Assembly: GCA_010094025.1 (NCBI GenBank)
Contig: ML991800.1
Coordinates: 1-64,000, forward strand
Length of the DNA: 64,000 nucleotides
Reading direction: 5' to 3'
Source of the DNA: Viridothelium virens
Lineage: Eukaryota > Ascomycota > Dothideomycetes > Trypetheliales > Trypetheliaceae
Shown: one piece after another, positions 1,689 through 63,372 of the stretch
How the letters are laid out: each line of letters starts with the position of its first letter
Position numbering within the stretch: position 1 is the stretch's first letter
Notes under the pieces: generated by a model
What the model was told of the DNA's origin: nothing
Database searches by the model: none
Seen by the model: the letters and a program-made list of their open reading frames with translations, nothing else
Program-made: the position numbers and the translations under genes

Positions 1689-1695
1689 AAAAAAA
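1689..1695 (-). terminator. Pol III T-run terminator of the tRNA gene
   Basis: Seven consecutive T on the minus strand begin directly after the discriminator base of the tRNA-Ala gene. A second T8 run follows about ten bases further on (1671-1678). Runs of four or more T end RNA polymerase III transcripts. Its preservation argues that the interrupted tRNA gene is still transcribed. Confidence 0.75.
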
Positions 1696-1827
1696 TGGAC
1701 TCGGAGGGAGTCGAACCCTCGACCTCTCCCATGCTAAGGGAAAATCATACCTACATCACTATATATTAGCCACTGCACGTAGTCAAACATGTAATCCTTT
1801 GATTGCTTACCGTTAGACCACGAGCCC
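1696..1827 (-). tRNA. tRNA-Ala(AGC) with a 60-nt insert in the D-loop
   Basis: Read on the minus strand, the 5' acceptor half GGGCTCG pairs with CGAGTCC and includes the G3:U70 wobble that marks alanine tRNAs. Discriminator A follows. The T arm is a five-pair stem GAGGG/CCCTC around TTCGACT. The anticodon loop TTAGCAT carries AGC on a stem with CCC/GGG at its core and is uninterrupted, so no intron sits at canonical 37/38. The D arm GTCTAACG is separated from GTATGATT by 60 extra bases; removing them gives a regular 72-nt tRNA. A box (TGGTCTAACGG) and B box (GGTTCGACTCC) are both intact, and a T7 terminator follows. Either this is a functional gene with a non-canonical intron, or a recently disrupted copy. 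The intact promoter boxes favour function but do not prove it. Confidence 0.85.
1751..1810 (-). other. Spliceosomal-looking 60-nt insert inside the tRNA
   Basis: On the minus strand the insert begins GTAAGC and ends GTAG, with GCTAAT starting 20 nt before its end. These are the donor, acceptor and branch-site forms used by protein-gene introns in this window. The insert falls between G18 and G19 of the D-loop. The four bases GGTA occur at both junctions, so the exact cut is ambiguous by a few bases; one of the few possible registers gives perfect GT-AG borders. Its 60 nt lies within the 39-144 nt range of introns here. Confidence 0.7.
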
Positions 1828-2440
1828 ATTATTAGGAAAATAATCTGTTAGCACATAATATATATTACAGTAGATATCGAACCTATCGAAGCGAGAACAG
1901 GTCGTCCCAAAGAGCGAATCGCAATGTCGATTCTCTAGAATAATAATTACATACTCCCATGACGACCGCGCAAATATGAGACAACCCGTTCGAGTGCCCA
2001 GCCGATAAATCTATACTGTCTTGGCTGATACTCGATCCGTCGTTGGCTGACCAGATTGCGATTCTCTGCACTCATATACTGTCGAAGAAGGTAGTTAACT
2101 TGGTAAGGGGCGTAAATGTTGATGTTGTGCCGGGGGGTTGGCGAAAGTGGCCGTTACCGCTGAAGCGTGAACACGTGAGTGGAGAGAGAAAACAGGACCC
2201 AGAACAGATCGATTGGTGGTGAAGCTAGAAAGCTAAGCTCGGGAGCTAGAAGCAAGAGATAGAGGGCTAGAAGCTAGTGGCGCTAGTGACGCTCAGGCCA
2301 CAAACCCACACCGCGCATCGTCCCCGCATGGCCGGACCGCACGGCCTGTGCCTCCATCTGACTTACACCCCACAAGCATACCCTAGCGCAGCATCTGGCG
2401 GCTAGGCATTGTACCTACATTCCGTGGCATCATCGCCATC
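1828..2440. other. Intergenic, with a GCTAG-rich simple repeat
   Basis: Nothing gene-like is visible. Around 2218-2290 the purine-rich sequence reuses the words GCTAGAAGC and GCTAGTG several times, which looks like a degenerate short tandem repeat. Confidence 0.4.
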
Positions 2441-9699: not shown

Positions 9700-10769
9700 G
9701 TTGTTGTGCCGACCATGTAATTCACGAGCACAAGAAGTACCGGCAGACATGTGCAAATAATCGATGTGTTTATCTCCACAGTTGATCAGATCACAGAATC
9801 CAAGATCGTGTCTATAAGATATGAGATTCAGCTTTTGCGTTCTTTTCTTGCCCCGGAAGAGGCGGAATGGCGAGAATTGACCACCCAGGTGGAACTTGAA
9901 CGTATGAGTGAAGAACAAGATGAGATTTTGCTTACAGGGAACATCTCTCGTATTGAGTGTTTCTAGCGAAATTGTGCGCATTACACTAGAGATACATACA
10001 CTAGTAGCGTCAGCTTAATCCGATGCTAAACGAGATCGAAGGTCTTACAGTCCCCAAAGAAGGAATAGCAGAGATATCAGAATCTTCCGCCGGGCCGTCA
10101 TTTGAAGCTTCCAGATACGGGTTTGAGGTATCGCAAGAATGACGATGTCCAAGACAATGTTGATAATGGACATAATAATATCGAATGGTTTCTCTTGAAT
10201 GCTCGTAAAGTGAGGTGCCCAAGACCCCCGCTGGGCTTCAAGGGGAGAAAGCTCGAGCATGTTGGTAACAAGACCTGCAATGACGTATCCAGTGAAAATA
10301 CTTCCCAAGGTCCACTTCCATATTTGAAGCGAGCGAACAGGAAATATACGACTATACATGATCAATGCTGATATCTTTGGCAACGCAATGGCAAAGGTGT
10401 ACGTCCATGTGCCGGCCAAATCTGTCTGCAAGGTGCGTTAGACAACTTCAAACAGCTTCGCGATCGCGAAATCACCTTGTACCCCACTTCCAGCTCTTGA
10501 TCATTATACTGCGTAATGTGATATCCCGCGTGCCCATCTTTAAGCGCGACCACGGATGCGATTATGAAACCGTAAGAGGTTGTTAGAGCAGCGAGACTGG
10601 TCCAGTCGTCCCACCCGATACCTGCGCGCATCTTACGAGCTACAAATCGAGCAATGACTGCAAGTGTAGATAGCAAAGTCAGAAAAGTGAAGACAATGAG
10701 GGCAGCCACTCCGTCTCGCCCTAACTTATGTGGATTGACAGGCGTCGATGGACTCTTGTCAGCCATCAT
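9700..10769 (-). pseudogene. PTH11/SAT4-type rhodopsin-like membrane protein, in-frame stop
   Basis: Exons 10769-10476, 10425-10049, 10000-9936 and a last one from 9811 are joined by introns of 50, 48 and 124 nt with GTGATT/GTAAGA/GTAAGC donors and phases that agree. The product matches the fungal rhodopsin-like integral membrane family: 'ARFVARKMRAGIGWDDW' after the first helix, 'TWTYTFAIALPKISAL', several further helices, and 'EINTSIICTCLPVL' in the seventh. These are plasma-membrane sensors, often in large accessory families. In the last exon the frame carries TGA at 9786-9788 where homologues have Trp ('DSVI-stop-STVEIN'), a single G-to-A type change. The stop removes the last helix, and the tail beyond it looks degraded. 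A gene broken only recently is the simplest reading. A sequencing error is the alternative. Confidence 0.7.
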
Positions 10770-20308: not shown

Positions 20309-23300
20309 ATGGCCGACGCGATCACAGAACCACAGGACCTTTTGGCGGTAATCGACCAGTCGGCCGGGAGTAGTTCGAGTACGCCTAATCAATCCACTCA
20401 GAACCCACGACGGGTGGCCAATGTTGTGCGCCAGCGGCGGAGGAAGAATCTGCCATCGTTGCGACACGCCAAAGACAGCACTGAGCAACTCCGACGCACA
20501 ATGGGTGGAAACAGTGGAAATACCTCTGAGCCGGGACAGGTAGTTGCTGCCGAAGGCGAGTACGGGGGAAGAGATCGAAGCGCTACCCAATATACCGTTG
20601 GGAACATTGCATCGGGCCGAATCTACCTGAGGTATGCCTTTTGAAATCAAGTTGTGTTGTTTGGCGACATGCTAGGGCGAAAGTGTTTTGCTGACCAACT
20701 TATGACCCAGACCGGTTGAGCGTAACGACCGTTCGGACTGGCCTTCAGCTCCACAATTTTCCTCTCCAGCCGATTCCACATCTACCAACACTGCGCTGGA
20801 AGCAGCAAAAGACAGATTGCGGGGTGAAAGATCGCGTGAGAGCTTCTTCACCAGAACACCAAACTCTAGTACTCCTCCGCAGCAAATCCGGGAATTCCCT
20901 GCACATCGCGACGATCTATACTTACCGCCTAGTCCTCGACGGAGAGTACCTGGACAGCGAGCGCACTCCTTTTCCACAATAGATGATCACACGCAAGTTC
21001 AAACGGACAATGGCACCTTTCGAATCGTTATCGAGCGTCCATCAATGAACCGACCAAAAACTGCGGATACAAACGCATTTCCGCAATTAGATGTCCAAAT
21101 TCCCCACTACAAGCTGGGCACGCCCCGTTTCAGCATTAGGGGGACTGCAACCTTACGTAGCTCAGCTTTCACTCGCAACTCCGATGCCGATGCCTTCCGA
21201 TCCTCGTTCATGTCCGCAAGGGACAACGACATGCTGTTTCCTGGTGTTGCACATATCTCGGTGACTTCTGGACAGAATTCTATTGTATCACCAAGACCTT
21301 TGTTTGCCCGCCGTAGTACTGTTCGCAACTCTGCTTCGACTGTCCAAGTCTCGCCTCCGCGAAAAGGTCATCCACCAATTACTCCCGACATATATGAAGC
21401 CCTCACTGCGAACCCCGATGATCCAGCATTCGTTCGATTCAATGCCACGTCTAAACAAATCACGGCAGCTACACCCGCTCGACTAGTAGCACACATCACG
21501 TCTCCAAGCTTCTTGGATTATGAGCTCCTCTCAGACTTCTTCCTCACTTTCCGATCGTACTTGTCGCCATCGGAACTAGTCTCCTATCTGGTGGCACGAC
21601 TAGAGTGGGCGGTCAACCGGCTCGACAATTTCGGTCGAATTGTCCGAGTCCGCACATTCGTCGCCCTTCGTCACTGGATCCTGAACTACTTTGTTGACGA
21701 TTTTGTTCCAGATCGACAGTTGAGGATTATGGTTTGTCACTTGGTGAATAAGCTGTACAGCGATGTTAAGCTACGCGAAGGGCCTGGGGGTGGCGATCTC
21801 AAGATTATTGGAGAACTGAAGAAATGCTGGCGAAGAACTTGTGCGTTGTACTGGGAAATGCCAGATGCTCTTGGTCGACAGTCTTCAGACGATCAGATAC
21901 TACCGGGCGGTGAGATAGGAAACCGATTATCCACATACTCTCAACAATCTCTCATGCCAGCGGTCAACATTCGGAATCCAGAATTGCAAAAGGTTTTACG
22001 AGGTCCGGCCGACGACTTCCATGATTTGTTGGCTAGCAAATCCGCGGAAGCGCTTCAGACATTCGAGCAGGCTGGAATTGAGAACACTGGCCCAGTCTCT
22101 ATGACTACGCGACCAGAATCATACGAGCCCGAAATCCCCACATCGCCCTTTAGTGAACGCAGCTTGCAAGTTGTGTCGTGCTCAATCCCAATGCGCACGA
22201 TGCCTCGAAATGGTCAACCTAACAGTCCTGAGGTACCATTATTCCCTCATCCAGTCCACATCACACCGGCCACAACCACAACAGGGACTGCGCCAACCCC
22301 CCAACCCTCAGCTGCTGCCCAACCGAACAAGGCAAACACCGGTCACAAGCGCAGCGGAAGCTTCAACGATGCGCTGAGAGATGAACGAGCGGGCCTCTCT
22401 CGGCAAAAGAAGCCAGAACCAAGAGATTTGGAATTTGAAGCCGACATGATGGCAGCTTATCCATTTACTGCGGGTCTGATTCGTGGAATTGTCATGCAAC
22501 CAGTCTCCCCCTATGTTGATGATACCGTCCCTCTGAGTCCCTCTGTTGAGAGGCTGGAACTATTTGATTTTGAATCCGGAGATGTCGTTGGTATACTTTC
22601 ACAGTCTGGACGTGTTACGCTGGCTGCAAATCCCGGTGTCAGAAAGCTGCTTGGCAGTGTACGACGTGCTTTGAGCACAAGACATGGACAGTCTCCGACG
22701 AGAAGTGACAAGTCCCTCAAGTCGAATGCAATGTCGTCTGAGGGACAACTAGTTCCATCGAACGCCCTCACCGCTCCGCTAAGTGAGAGACGACCAAAGA
22801 AGAAGACTCAAGCGCGAATCGATCTCTTGTCTGCTGGTGTATGCGAGAGCTTCAGAAGGGCAATGATTGAGGAGTTTGACGCCGACGAACAAATCGACGA
22901 CGCAGAAAACCAGCAGAGAACACCAACACCGAGCAGCGTAGGCCCACCTCGGTTACCAGAATTGAGTGATTTGGCCAAACCGAACATCCAAAGATTGGAT
23001 AGCAACGTCACAGTTGGAAGTCGATCTATCGTGATAGTCGACGATACGCAGCCACCTCCAATTCCTGAGAAATCTACTGCGCGACAGAGTACTCGAGTAG
23101 CAAACGAAGCTCGTGCGAGACAGTCTGCTTTCATCAGGCCACGGGATAATATTACCTCTATGGACACAGCAGCTCCAGATGATGAATTTGGCACAACTTT
23201 GGAAGATATGAGGGTCATGGACGATACTCAGCGATCGCCTCCACTCTCCACTGGCCGTGCTCCTGATTCAGGCCCAACGAGTGAAACAGTGCCCGTTCTG

Positions 23301-39545: not shown

Positions 39546-41251
39546 ATGATTAAGCCTTTGTCTATCAGCCCGATACTTTACCTGGTTGCTGGTGCATTCG
39601 CGGTTCCTCATGACGCACACACTTTAAAAGCAGAGCCTGTATGCACACTTATCAATCTCGGATATGCAACATACCAAGGCACGTCATTAGAGGCAGGGAT
39701 TAATCAATACTTGGGTCTACGGTACGCAGCGCCACCAGTTGGTGATCGTAGATGGAGAGCTCCAGAGGATCCAGTTCCGGAAGATGGAACCCAGGATGCG
39801 ACCAAATTCGGCCCGATTTGTATTGGAACTGGTCAGGCATTCAGCAACACAACGGCCGAAGATTGCTTGTACATTAATGTATTCACACCATCGAATGCAA
39901 CGGTCCATAGTAAGCTGCCTGTGTGGATAAATATCCAAGGTGGAGGATACGCTACGAATGCAAATGCAAATTACAACGGAACCCAGGCTGTCATGAGCTC
40001 GAAGAACAACATCGTCTTGGTGAACTTCAATTATCGTGTTGGAGCCTTTGGCTTCTTGGCTAGCGAGAAGGTGAGAGCTAATGGGACGTTGAACGTAGGT
40101 CTTCTAGATCAGCGAAAAGCTTTGGAATGGTTGCAGAAGTACATTCAGCTGGTATGGCATTCGCAATCCCGAGATCTTACCAGCGTTAACAGGCTTAGTT
40201 CGGAGGAGATCCCGACCACGTCGTTATCCACGGTGCTTCCGCAGGAGCCGGATCTATTGCATATCAACTGACAGCTTACGGTGGCCAAGACGATGGGCTC
40301 TTTGTCGGCGCCATTGCTGAATCGCCGTTCTTCCCGACACACCGGACCGTTGCCGAGATGGAGTTCCAGTTCGATCGCTTCGCTTCAAATGTCTCTTGCG
40401 ATGCCAACTCCGAAGATGTGATGACGTGTTTGCGCTCTCAAGATGCGGCAACACTTCAGCAAGCAAATGTGGTTTCGCCATATCCTGAGCGCATAAACGA
40501 ATCTCGATGGTATTTCCTGCCGGTAGTCGATGGTGATTTCTCCCCAGACTTGCTGTACAATCTCCTTGAGCAAGGAAAGTTTGTGAATGTTCCGACCATT
40601 GTTGGGGATGACACAGACGAAGGGGAGAGTTTCGCCGTAAATGCAACGACTAATGAGGAATTCTTGCAGTCTCTAGTGGACAACTATCCCAATTTGTCAA
40701 GTGGCGACTTGGAGAAAATCAATGCATCTTACCCATTGTTGCCGCCACTCCCTGCACATGCCCTGTGGTTCCATACAGCAGCACAGGCATATGGAGACTC
40801 CACATTCACCTGCGCCGGCAATAAAATCGCCATATCTGTCTCCAATTATACGGGCCGTCAATCGTCTTGGAATTACCACTATAATGTGGTGGACAACAAA
40901 GGTGCCGCTTCCGGAAACGGTGTACCTCACACAGCCGAAACCCCAGCAATCTTTGGACCTCCAAATGGCAACTGCAAGAACTTGACGAACACGGCAGACG
41001 CATGCTCCTACTACACGTACAATAGGGCCATAGTGCCTGTGGTTATGAACTACTGGATTAGCTTTGTGAGGTCCTTGAATCCAAACACGTATCGGGCGCC
41101 TGGGTCACCAGTCTGGGAGAATTGGGGGTTAGGTGTCCATGAGAGAAGACTGAAGTTCCAGACTAATGATACTGTCATGGAGGATGTGCCGAGCGTGATG
41201 CGAAGTAGATGTGAACTGTGGAAAGAATTGGCCGCTGTCACAGAGCAATGA
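39546..41251 (+). CDS. Secreted type-B carboxylesterase/lipase
   Basis: Two exons (39546-40151, 40199-41251) with a 47-nt intron (donor GTATGG, branch TTAAC, acceptor TTAG) give 552 aa. I chose the ATG at 39546 because it opens a signal peptide ('PILYLVAGAFAVP'); an ATG 25 codons earlier is in frame. 'AEDCLYINVFTP' is the family signature 2, 'VWINIQGGGYA' the oxyanion region, and 'GDPDHVVIHGASAGA' holds the nucleophile Ser216. Glu343 in 'DDTDEGESF' and His446 in 'GVPHTAETP' complete the triad. Six or more N-x-S/T sites and paired cysteines fit secretion. The family hydrolyses carboxylic esters, including feruloyl, cholesteryl and lipid esters. The length is normal (500-600 aa). The substrate is not predictable. 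Confidence 0.92.
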
Positions 41252-42110: not shown

Positions 42111-44317
42111 ATGGCAACCCAGAATACGCAGCCCAGCAGCTCATCTTCCGGGTCGGAGACCCTCGCGAGATCTGAAGATCAAAACCAAAGCCTGCCTCGG
42201 CAACGAAGACCAGAACGGCTCGAACAGTACATGGAGTTTGATTACGTGGGGCCCGTCAATGATCCTCTTGTTGAGCGTTCTAGAGCTTCACTTCAGGAAG
42301 ATGCAAAAAGGTTCTATCGTGGTTTTCCGGATACACAGTCCGGTGAACCAACATTCGCACATCTGTCTGCGCTGAGACATGTTGTGACGGAAGAGATGTT
42401 TGTTCGAGGCGCCCTCCTAGCACGACGGCGCCAAAATCTTCTAGATCCTTTACCTGGTTCCCGCGATACACCCTCACTATCATCTCAAGCTGAGGGTAGT
42501 CAAGATCAGGAGAACGAGGAGAGTCGACTATCCCAGACCGAGTTTGATTCTTTGAAAGCAGAGGATGCTTCGCGTCTCAAGGATCAGACCAAGGCACTCA
42601 ACTTAGTTCTGTTGACCTGCTGTGTTGGCGCCGTGGTGCAAGGCTGGTCTCAAGCCAGCATAACTGGGGCAAACCTCTGGTGGCCATGTGAGCTTCTTGC
42701 CAGTGGCACTACGGACTCCCCTCCTTGCCAGCCATCGAAAAAATGGGCATTCAATGCCGTTAACGCCGCCGCATTTTTCTCTGCCTGCATTGGCGTGTGG
42801 CTTTCTGACTTCCTCAATGATATGGCTTATGGTCGACGTGGAGCGCTCATGGTTGCTGGAACTATCACATTCATCGCATCAATATGGTCTGGCTATACTT
42901 CTACTTGGATCCAGCTATTTGGAGCTCGTTTCCTTCTTGGCATTGGATATGGTGCTAAGGCCTCTGTTGTCACAATTTTTGAGTCGGAGGTTGCGCCCTC
43001 CAAGCGTCGCGGTCGCCTCTTAGTCTCATGGCAATTCTTTACGGCCACCGGGCTTTGGCTAGGTACAGCAGCAAATCTCATATTTCATTGGAATTGGAGG
43101 CTTCAGGTCTCTAGCAGTTTTATACCCTGTATCACCTTTGTAGCTCTGGCCTGGGCATCTTCCGAATCACCTCGTTGGTTGATAAAAAAAGAACGATATA
43201 AGGAAGCCTTCATCGTCCTTCGAGATCTGCGAGGTACAGACTTACAAGCTGCAAGAGATTTATACTTCATCTACGCTCAGCTGAGAGTGGAGATGCTCAT
43301 ACTTGCTGGAGAGAAAGACCACAGCCTTGCGGACTGGAGAAACTACTGGGTTTACCGGTGGGCGCTGGCAAAGTCTAGATACACTACCCGTCTGCAACAA
43401 ATTTTCTCAATACCTAGGAACAGAAGGGCCGCATTAGCTAGTACACTCGTCATGGCATCCCAGTAGGTCGAGGGTTACCCCCAAATGTTGCTCATAACTA
43501 ACATTTTCTTAAACAACTATCCGGAATTAACACCTTCGCTTTCACAGCAGCATCAGTCTTAGCTGCCGCTGGATCAAAGCCAACCAACAGTCTCTGGATC
43601 ACTTTTGGTTGGACTGCAGTCAATGCCATTTGCTCAGGCTTCGCATACCGGTTTGTTGATTCGAAAGGTCGTCGCTTCCTACTCCTATTTTCGCTGATTA
43701 GTATGGTGCCTCTTACTCTCAGCCAAGCATTTAGCCTGGCCATTTCAAATAAAGTACATTCCGGTAGGCTGCATGATGGTATTGTCGTACTATTCACCTA
43801 TCTTAATGTGGGCGCCTACTCTCCAGGTGCTGGAGTAGTGCCTTTTCTTTATTCCAGTGAGGTGTTCCCCTTAATTAATCGCGAAGCCGGCATGTCGTGG
43901 AGCTGCTTCGTCAATTTTCTCTTTGGTGCCATCATTCTCTTTTGTAGTCCGGTATCATGGACCTCGGGCACTACAGAATCCCTCGGCTCCGAACTCACGA
44001 AACTATTCTTCATCTTCGCGTAAGTTTCAAACACACTGTCAGAATCTAGTTACTGATAACTTTCTCTCAGAGCAATTGACTTCGTTGCTGCGGTTCTCGT
44101 TTGGTTCTATGTACCCGAGACCAGCCTGGGGGACCAGTCGGCACTTGAACACATGAACTATTTATTCTCAATTCCAACCCGCGCTGCGCAACGATTCCAT
44201 GCCTTGAAGCTCAGACCGCGAAACATGCGGCCAAGGGATGAAAGCAATAATGGGAGGCTCCCTCCGACTCTTGATGAGTGGTGGAAGGACTACGGCAGAG
44301 AGAGATATAGGCACTGA
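42111..44317 (+). pseudogene. MFS sugar/inositol-type transporter with a lost acceptor site
   Basis: Coding blocks are 42111-43462, about 43516-44019 and 44071-44317. The second intron is normal (GTAAGT...CTCAG, 51 nt). The first has donor GTAGGT and branch CTAAC, but no AG lies where the frame must resume ('QLSGINTFAF'); the sequence there is AAACAACTATCC. Any later AG would delete a conserved helix or break frame. The protein has a 150-aa N-terminal extension, twelve hydrophobic segments, 'YGRRGALMVAG' between helices 2 and 3, 'RFLLGIGYGAKASVV', 'SESPRWL', and 'VPETSLGDQSALEHM' after the last helix. These place it near the proton-coupled inositol/sugar transporters of the plasma membrane. 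A point change that destroyed the acceptor is the likely cause. If splicing tolerates a non-AG end here, the gene could still work. Confidence 0.75.
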
Positions 44318-61838: not shown

Positions 61839-63372
61839 ATGCCTGCTCCTACGAAACTGTGGTCACTGACTGCCACTGAGGTTCTGAGCTTGATAAAGAA
61901 GGATCAGCTCACTGTTGAGGACTATGCGTACGCAGTACTGGGACGTGTCGAATCGAGAGACAGTGTGGTGAAAGCATGGCAGTACTTCGGTACGTCATCT
62001 TCTTTACTGAACACGTAGCAAGCTAGAATGAACATGCATCAGATCCGGATGTTGTCTTGAGTCAGGCTCGTGCTCTCGACCGAGTCCCACGCGACCAGAG
62101 GGGCCCACTTCGTGGAGTTGCTATTGGCGTCAAAGACATAATGGACACTAAAGGTAAGCCTATTTCCACTTTTGGACGTGATATTGCTCAATCGATCAAG
62201 ATATGCCAACAGAATACGGTTCTCCTTTGTACAAGGGCAACAGGCCAAATGCCGATTCCTCACCTGTTGAGATATTCCGAAAATCTGGGGCCCTCATATT
62301 CGGTATGTTTATCGGAATTGCGATGGAAGTGGTCCTAAATGGTATTATAGGCAAGACGACCACGACAGAATTCACAATTCTGAATTCAGGACCTAATACC
62401 ACCAACCCGCACCACGCCTATCGTATTCCGGGCGGGTCTTCGGCTGGATCTGCAGCTGCGGTAGCTGACTTTCAAGTACCGCTCAGCTGTGGAACCCAGA
62501 CGGGAGGCAGCGTTATACGCCCAGCTTCTTACACGGGCACATACGCTATGAAGCCAAGGCATTAAGGTCGTCTCCCTTGAACTCGACACCTTTGGCTACT
62601 TTGCTCGAAGCATGGAGGATCTGAAACTTATCACGGACGTATTCAATGTCACGGCGGATGAACCCGTCAAGGACATACCGCTGAAAGAGACCAAAGTGGG
62701 GTTTCTGAAGACGCCGTTCTGGCCATCTGCCGGGCTCGGCACTGTCGTAGCCATGGAAAAAGCCGCAAATATTCTCTGGGATCACGACGTCACGGTTGAG
62801 GAGGTCAAATTCCCGAATGAATTCGATGATGCTAAGGATTTGAAGCGCATGTTCAAAGTGATCCTAACAATCAATGCGCGCACGTTCCTCTTGAAGGAAT
62901 TCCTAAGGGACACCACGAAGACAAAGCTAGACCCGGAAATCCGCACATTCGTCGAGAACGCCTCCAGTATCCCTTGTGAAGAGATACGGCGAGCCTTTGA
63001 CTGCTATGCAGGCATGCGTCCTGTATTTGAACAGATTGCCGCAAAGTATTCCGTCCTGATCACTCCAAGCGCGGCCGATGAAGCACCCTTGGGTCTTGGT
63101 GATATGGGCGATGCCGATTTCAACTTCGTATGGACGGTGAGAATTCTTAATCTCACCAGTATTGCGCCAGGCTAAACTTCTCCCTTTAGGGAGCGCATAT
63201 GCCGGTGATCAACGTGCCTGCGTTCGCAGGACCCAACGGCATGCCCATGGGCCTGTCTCTCATAGCCCGTAGGTTTGGTGATCAGCATCTTCTGAGCATC
63301 GCAAAAGTTCTCAGTAGGCCTCTAATGAGCGAAGGGGGTTGGCAGGCGACGTTGTTCAGCACCATGAATTGA
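61839..63372 (+). pseudogene. Amidase-signature enzyme with one frameshift
   Basis: Exons 61839-61989, 62043-62153, 62201-62302, 62351-63136 and 63190-63372 join with introns of 47-53 nt, all GT-AG and in phase 1 or 0. The amidase signature triad is present: Lys in 'AIGVKDIMDTKD', the cis-Ser in 'IPGGSSAGSAAAVAD', and the nucleophile region 'SCGTQTGGSVIRPAS'. The family hydrolyses small amides in the cytosol. At about 62556 the frame breaks: 'TYAMKP' runs into a stop, and the expected continuation 'GIKVVSLELDTFGYFARSME' starts a few bases on in another frame. About five residues usual at this place are missing, so a small deletion is likely. No intron fits the gap. The rest, to 'NGMPMGLSLIARRFGDQHLL', is well preserved, so the break is recent or an assembly error. 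Confidence 0.8.

Follow-up and report, generated by a model that had tools for sequence, protein, structure and literature searches.

A tRNA-Ala(AGC) gene of the fungus Viridothelium virens with a GT-AG insert in its D-loop: a possible spliceosomal intron in a Pol III-type gene

Introduction

Introns of tRNA genes are treated as a separate class, being removed by a protein endonuclease and a ligase. In fungi, spliceosomal introns are already known from mRNA, U6, U3 and rRNA genes; U6 is a Pol III gene, and rRNA is transcribed by Pol I, not Pol II. The locus described here is a tRNA-Ala(AGC) gene of the ascomycete Viridothelium virens with a 60-nt insert in its D-loop. The spliceosomal introns of fungal U6 snRNA resemble it in that they interrupt a short structured RNA gene, but the U6 RNA is itself part of the spliceosome, whereas the host here is a tRNA. 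The introns of fungal nuclear rDNA are likewise of mRNA type, and the transcript that carries them is not a Pol II product; their host is an rRNA transcribed by Pol I, and ours is a tRNA. In the excerpts of a 2017 paper used here, U3 snoRNA and U6 snRNA are given as the only small structured RNAs then known to be often interrupted by introns, and the title of a work cited there has U6 snRNA introns gained several times in fungi (PMC5832005). The same excerpts describe U3 snoRNA as carrying a trimethylguanosine cap and having its own promoter (PMC5832005), and it undergoes no tRNA processing, unlike the RNA considered here. Passages of another paper report spliceosomal introns in the nuclear rDNA of a fungus, with direct repeats at or near the borders of spliceosomal introns, as in our case (PMC11782384). 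Such repeats support reading the insert as an intron.

Non-canonical tRNA introns have been described in archaea, in the red alga Cyanidioschyzon and in nucleomorphs (PMC4090602, PMC3978253, PMC9602550, in the parts drawn on here), and those of C. merolae, nucleomorphs and archaea include inserts in the D-arm, as in our gene. The original prediction, made from the same DNA, listed red algae and archaea as the bearers of D-arm introns; both belong there, but the list left out the cryptomonad and chlorarachniophyte nucleomorphs, which appear in an excerpt of PMC4090602. The tRNA endonuclease of archaea and C. merolae has a bulge-helix-bulge motif as its substrate, whereas our insert has no strict motif of this kind and shows a GT-AG grammar instead. 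Canonical introns at position 37/38 are, as here, single inserts in a nuclear tRNA gene, but their position and signals differ. The 60 nt of the insert fall within the 6-133 nt that a passage of PMC4090602 gives for canonical nuclear tRNA introns. The original prediction knew of no D-loop introns in fungi, and a full-text search, with subscription journals mostly outside its range, likewise returned no fungal D-arm tRNA intron; the passages it yielded described no tRNA gene with a spliceosomal intron either, which does not amount to proof that none exists.

Our preferred interpretation, a tentative one that we rate a little short of an even chance, takes the insert for a spliceosomal-type intron of the U2 class with GT-AG ends, lying in the D-loop of a fungal nuclear, Pol III-type tRNA-Ala(AGC) gene. 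We chose it because the intron grammar, the exact restoration of the tRNA and the intact arms coincide.

Results and Discussion

The interrupted tRNA gene

The window, i.e., the whole stretch of DNA analysed, spans 64 kb. Its tRNA-Ala(AGC) gene lies on the minus strand, with the 5' end at 1827, a strand that the original prediction had left unstated (Table 1). The claim that this tRNA is split in the D-loop is borne out by ARAGORN, which calls the gene only once the 60 bp are omitted: the spliced DNA yields one tRNA-Ala(agc) with a 72-nt product. The unspliced local DNA gave zero genes, whether in the standard mode or with introns of up to 100 nt or up to 150 nt allowed, and the entire unspliced window gave zero tRNA genes as well. 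The intron search of ARAGORN concerns the anticodon loop. At the gathering threshold, Rfam produced no match anywhere in the window. A permissive Rfam search of 501 bp returned 8 matches, every one under its own gathering score; the best E-value belonged to the tmRNA model, which spans the tRNA gene and scores 23.5 bits where 47 would be required. The architecture of that model consists of tRNA ends with a long middle.

Table 1. Coordinates of the tRNA locus and of the comparison introns within the window
Feature	Position	Strand	Basis or remark
TATA-like stretch, 29-40 bp upstream of the tRNA 5' end	1856..1867	-	by eye; AT-rich region, weak
tRNA-Ala(AGC) gene including insert, 132 nt	1696..1827	-	ARAGORN on spliced DNA and sequence
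5' exon, 17 nt: acceptor strand, positions 8-9, D-stem 5' strand, D-loop start to G18	1811..1827	-	
Insert, 60 nt, GT-AG register; GTAAGC at 1810-1805, GTAG end at 1754-1751; GGTA repeat flanks	1751..1810	-	sequence
Candidate branch site GCTAAT; 15 nt from branch A to insert 3' end	1765..1770	-	
3' exon, 55 nt, G19 to A73: D-stem 3' strand, anticodon arm (AGC), variable loop, T arm, acceptor strand	1696..1750	-	
T7 run, Pol III terminator-like, adjoining A73	1689..1695	-	by eye
Window intron, rhodopsin-like gene	10001-10048		
Window intron, rhodopsin-like gene	10426-10487		Pfam domain recognised on both junction sides
Window intron before RasGEF frame	20632-20710		
Window intron, carboxylesterase	40152-40198		placed by eye; joined translation and Pfam domain on both sides
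Window intron, end of transporter frame	44020-44070		

Apart from the insert, the gene looks intact, much as the original prediction had described it. The acceptor stem is paired at 7/7 positions and includes G3:U70, the T stem is paired at 5/5, and the T7 run directly follows the discriminator base. The anticodon stem forms 5/5 pairs, one of them G-U, and the ARAGORN drawing of the spliced form shows an uninterrupted anticodon loop, TTAGCAT. Thus the insert lies in the D-loop and not at 37/38, the place of a canonical tRNA intron. Both the A box and the B box, which the original prediction had also reported, are recognisable by eye against the consensus, and so are the usual invariant positions T8, A14, G18, G19, A21 and T33 and the T-loop TTCGA. 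With the insert removed, ARAGORN draws a cloverleaf with the AGC anticodon and G3:U70, as expected of a functional tRNA-Ala.

This anatomy bears on the main alternative, namely that the gene is a recent dead copy, one of several tRNA-Ala(AGC) genes broken by an insertion of 56-60 bp, with its intron-like look owed to luck. The possibility comes close to our preferred interpretation in likelihood. According to an excerpt of PMC4090602, short insertions in the D- or T-arm of eukaryotic tRNA genes mostly affect a single member of a large set of synonymous genes and are presumed to mark pseudogenes. In our gene, the stems and the T7 run are unbroken outside the insert (and the boxes, judged by eye). 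With every arm and the T7 run preserved, a point against this alternative, such an insertion would have to be recent; the state of the gene is compatible with a very recent pseudogene and speaks against an older one. A tRNA-derived repeat (SINE) was rejected because the T7 run comes directly after the discriminator base.

The gene does have some irregular features. The D-stem contains two non-Watson-Crick pairs, U13:U22 and G10:U25, and A15 faces C48 in a non-standard tertiary pair (numbering by eye). We counted the latter, which may be a mild blemish, against the intron interpretation. As to the D-stem, the restored motif GGTCTA-nn-GGTATGATT is also carried by two tRNA-Pro genes, AGG and TGG, both of them intact, on a contig, L002, so the two unusual pairs need not mean decay. 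This contig was the sole match when the genome contig collection was scanned for the restored D-arm, and it served as a D-arm reference only. Its three tRNA-Ala genes have different D-arms, the motif there being of the Pro type (8 of the 45 tRNAs aligned), a point counted against the intron interpretation. L002 (1-8000) is titled as a bacterial (Maritimibacter) MAG, yet it carries a 5S rRNA gene and 45 ARAGORN tRNA genes with anticodons of eukaryote type (AGC, AGG, AAC, AAT); apparently, it is a mis-binned eukaryotic tRNA array. The viral contigs, scanned with three patterns of tRNA-Ala(AGC), gave zero matches for each. A fourth, shorter pattern matched one viral contig (L001), where ARAGORN finds no tRNA, and we discarded this as a chance match. 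Overall, the viral and genome contig collections scanned, both non-fungal, yielded no relative of the tRNA locus.

Borders and signals of the insert

The insert is bordered by GGTA on either side, so that five registers are possible for the junction, all leading to an identical product. The junction between G18 and G19 proposed by the original prediction is a valid one, but it is one of these five equivalents. A single register has GT-AG ends, G/GTAAGC...GTAG/GT (slashes mark the borders), and removal of the insert leaves the exon junction AACG/GTATGATT. The coordinates originally given for the gene are correct, and so is the content given for the insert, with GTAAGC at its start, GCTAAT inside and GTAG at its end. 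In that one register, therefore, the insert has the GT..AG ends and the 5' consensus of a U2-type spliceosomal intron, and its 5' site forms six contiguous pairs with U1. One detail was counted against the intron interpretation: an earlier AG (TATAG) occurs 7 nt past the candidate branch A, ahead of the second AG, at 15 nt, whose use restores the tRNA. The shortest distance from branch A to AG among the five window introns is 9 nt, compared with 7 nt for the first AG of the insert.

The repeat can be explained in more than one way. It suits an insertion event, and if the gene is a recent dead copy, the 4 bp would be a target-site duplication or end-joining filler. An assembly or sequencing artefact, in turn, is the least probable origin of the insert that we considered, given that assembly errors do not typically take the form of a clean insertion bordered by a short repeat, with the rest of the gene intact. 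On our preferred interpretation, a spliceosomal-type intron, the insert was probably gained recently.

With blastn-short and nhmmer, we found no second copy of the insert within the window, which we counted against the intron interpretation; a repeat or introner family in the window was rejected on the grounds that the insert is single-copy there. A 22-nt AT-rich inverted repeat (77%) links the 3' part of the insert (1747-1768) with the 5' flank of the tRNA (1856-1877). Being AT-rich and imperfect, it was rejected as a pair of terminal repeats.

Comparison with introns of the same window

The original prediction held that the insert follows the grammar of the mRNA introns of this genome. We compared it with five introns of the window, which were hand-picked and thus speak to compatibility, not to frequency. 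A codon-based scan gave 231 raw candidates, 5 of which were listed after filtering, and a looser scan gave 28 above the threshold; the remaining candidates, being without independent support, were dropped. Three gaps without a clean GT-AG join were dropped as well: one more in the rhodopsin gene, the first of the transporter and the one in the amidase. A Pfam domain is recognised on both sides of the junction in only two of the five (10426-10487 and 40152-40198).

The five introns are 47-79 nt long and have 9-16 nt after the branch A. They begin with GTAAGA, GTGGGG, GTATGC, GTAAGT and GTATGG, and their branch motifs are CTGAC, CTAAC, CTGAC, CTGAT and TTAAC. The insert agrees with them in its length (60 nt, against a small and biased sample of n=5) and in its branch motif CTAAT with 15 nt after the branch A, a distance within the range of introns of which four were chosen partly by such motifs. 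Its GTAAGC start, however, occurs in none of the five. Moreover, the scans behind four of the five gave credit for such branch motifs and limited the length; because of that credit, the agreement is partly built in. Taking this bias into account slightly lowers our confidence in an intron and raises that in a dead copy.

Chance occurrence of the grammar

How often an insertion would look like an intron by luck was estimated by setting 56-nt pieces between two GGTA repeats, the pieces being overlapping genomic segments from both strands. GT-AG ends appeared in some register in 31,956 of the 127,888 segments; consequently, GT-AG alone means little, and only the longer signals carry weight. The full grammar, defined as a strong 5' site with a branch motif at a fair distance under rules fixed after the insert had been seen, appeared in 480 of the 127,888 segments; with mononucleotide shuffles, the count was 128 of 20,000. 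Given such an insertion, its chance is thus about 0.4-0.6%. Without the repeat, it was present in 2 of the 127,880 60-mers of the window (both strands).

That the grammar is uncommon by chance argues against a recent dead copy, but 0.4-0.6% is large enough to matter if the choice fell on this locus after many others had been looked through. Since the rules were set post hoc and the locus was selected from a larger text, the rarity of the grammar is support and not proof. Overall, we prefer a spliceosomal-type intron to a recent dead copy by a hair, the two readings being about level.

Routes of removal and predicted folding

The original prediction offered two routes by which the insert could leave the transcript, the spliceosome or the tRNA endonuclease acting at a new site. 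Its picture of an intact tRNA with an mRNA-intron-like insert at an unusual site agrees with ARAGORN and the sequence, and of the two routes, the spliceosome fits better. A strict bulge-helix-bulge was found in zero of the five registers when strict geometry was applied: the best placements reached 3/4 central pairs, with 0-1 pair in the outer helix and 2-3 pairs in the inner helix in three registers. Removal of the bulge-helix-bulge type is thus left without its strict motif, and an endonuclease is accordingly less likely. An intron cut by the tRNA endonuclease (Sen) at a non-canonical site, as in Cyanidioschyzon or nucleomorphs, is improbable in our judgement. There is precedent for it in the D-arm pre-tRNA introns of a red alga and of nucleomorphs (PMC4090602, PMC3978253, PMC9602550, as excerpted), but with at most 3/4 central pairs in any register, it would also leave the GT-AG ends and the branch motif unexplained. 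A passage of PMC3978253 describes many tRNA introns of the Guillardia nucleomorph as having no defined motif, and for that reason the strict-motif test is not absolute. If the insert is removed at all, splicing of a Pol III transcript by the spliceosome would most likely be the route.

Predicted folding speaks mildly against spliceosomal removal, as it tends to bury the 5' splice site. This site is predicted to be mostly paired, the mean unpaired value being 0.30 compared with 0.51 when the insert is shuffled (0.30 or less in 46 of 300 shuffles). The predicted fold energy is -44.7, whereas the shuffles average -41.4, and 33 of 300 reach an energy at least as low. In the minimum-energy fold of the unspliced RNA, the acceptor, anticodon and T arms are retained, and the D-arm 5' strand is moved into another hairpin. 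The retained arms could be taken to favour an insert that stays in place as an enlarged D-loop, or a transcript with another role. We regard this as very improbable: the diverted D-arm strand does not suit it, and a 60-nt extension of the D-loop is expected to disturb the tRNA elbow.

Returning to the spliceosomal intron, one may suppose the following course of events. Pol III would transcribe the entire gene, whose A box survives thanks to the GGTA repeat at the insert. U1 would pair with G/GTAAG, the A of GCTAAT would serve as the branch point, and splicing would use the second downstream AG (15 nt) at the 3' end, since the one at 7 nt probably lies too close. Ligation of the exons would then restore AACGGTATGATT and a normal cloverleaf. 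That the gene is transcribed, spliced and used in this way is what we infer from its letters. It is tempting to go a step further and suppose that the maturation of a fungal nuclear tRNA depends on the pre-mRNA spliceosome, through a D-loop GT-AG intron recently gained with a 4-bp GGTA repeat and carried in a Pol III transcript; this fuller scenario is more doubtful than the intron identity itself and also somewhat less likely than a dead copy.

Possible implications

Should the insert be spliced, the series of fungal U3, U6 and rRNA genes with spliceosomal introns would extend to tRNA, and intron gain would be seen to reach tRNA genes too. An uncapped and folded Pol III pre-tRNA could then be a substrate of the spliceosome, and decoding capacity would be tied to spliceosome function. 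D-arm insertions, mostly dismissed as pseudogenes, would in that case merit a fresh look for splice-site grammar.

Neighbouring genes

The surroundings of the tRNA gene are made up of ordinary fungal nuclear genes, including those with a fungal rhodopsin domain, ARID, RasGEF, Ist1, a homeodomain, a carboxylesterase and a sugar transporter. The sugar-transporter gene has a gap at 43440-43550 whose frames are joined by no clean GT-AG intron, perhaps a non-canonical intron or the sign of a broken gene. At 62182-63172, an amidase gene lies in two frames with no convincing GT-AG join. A minus-strand ORF at 13340-14332 matches Cir_N just below the Pfam cut-off (22.1 versus 22.6 bits). We take this ORF to resemble the splicing factor CWC25; its place next to the tRNA gene is a coincidence of neighbourhood.
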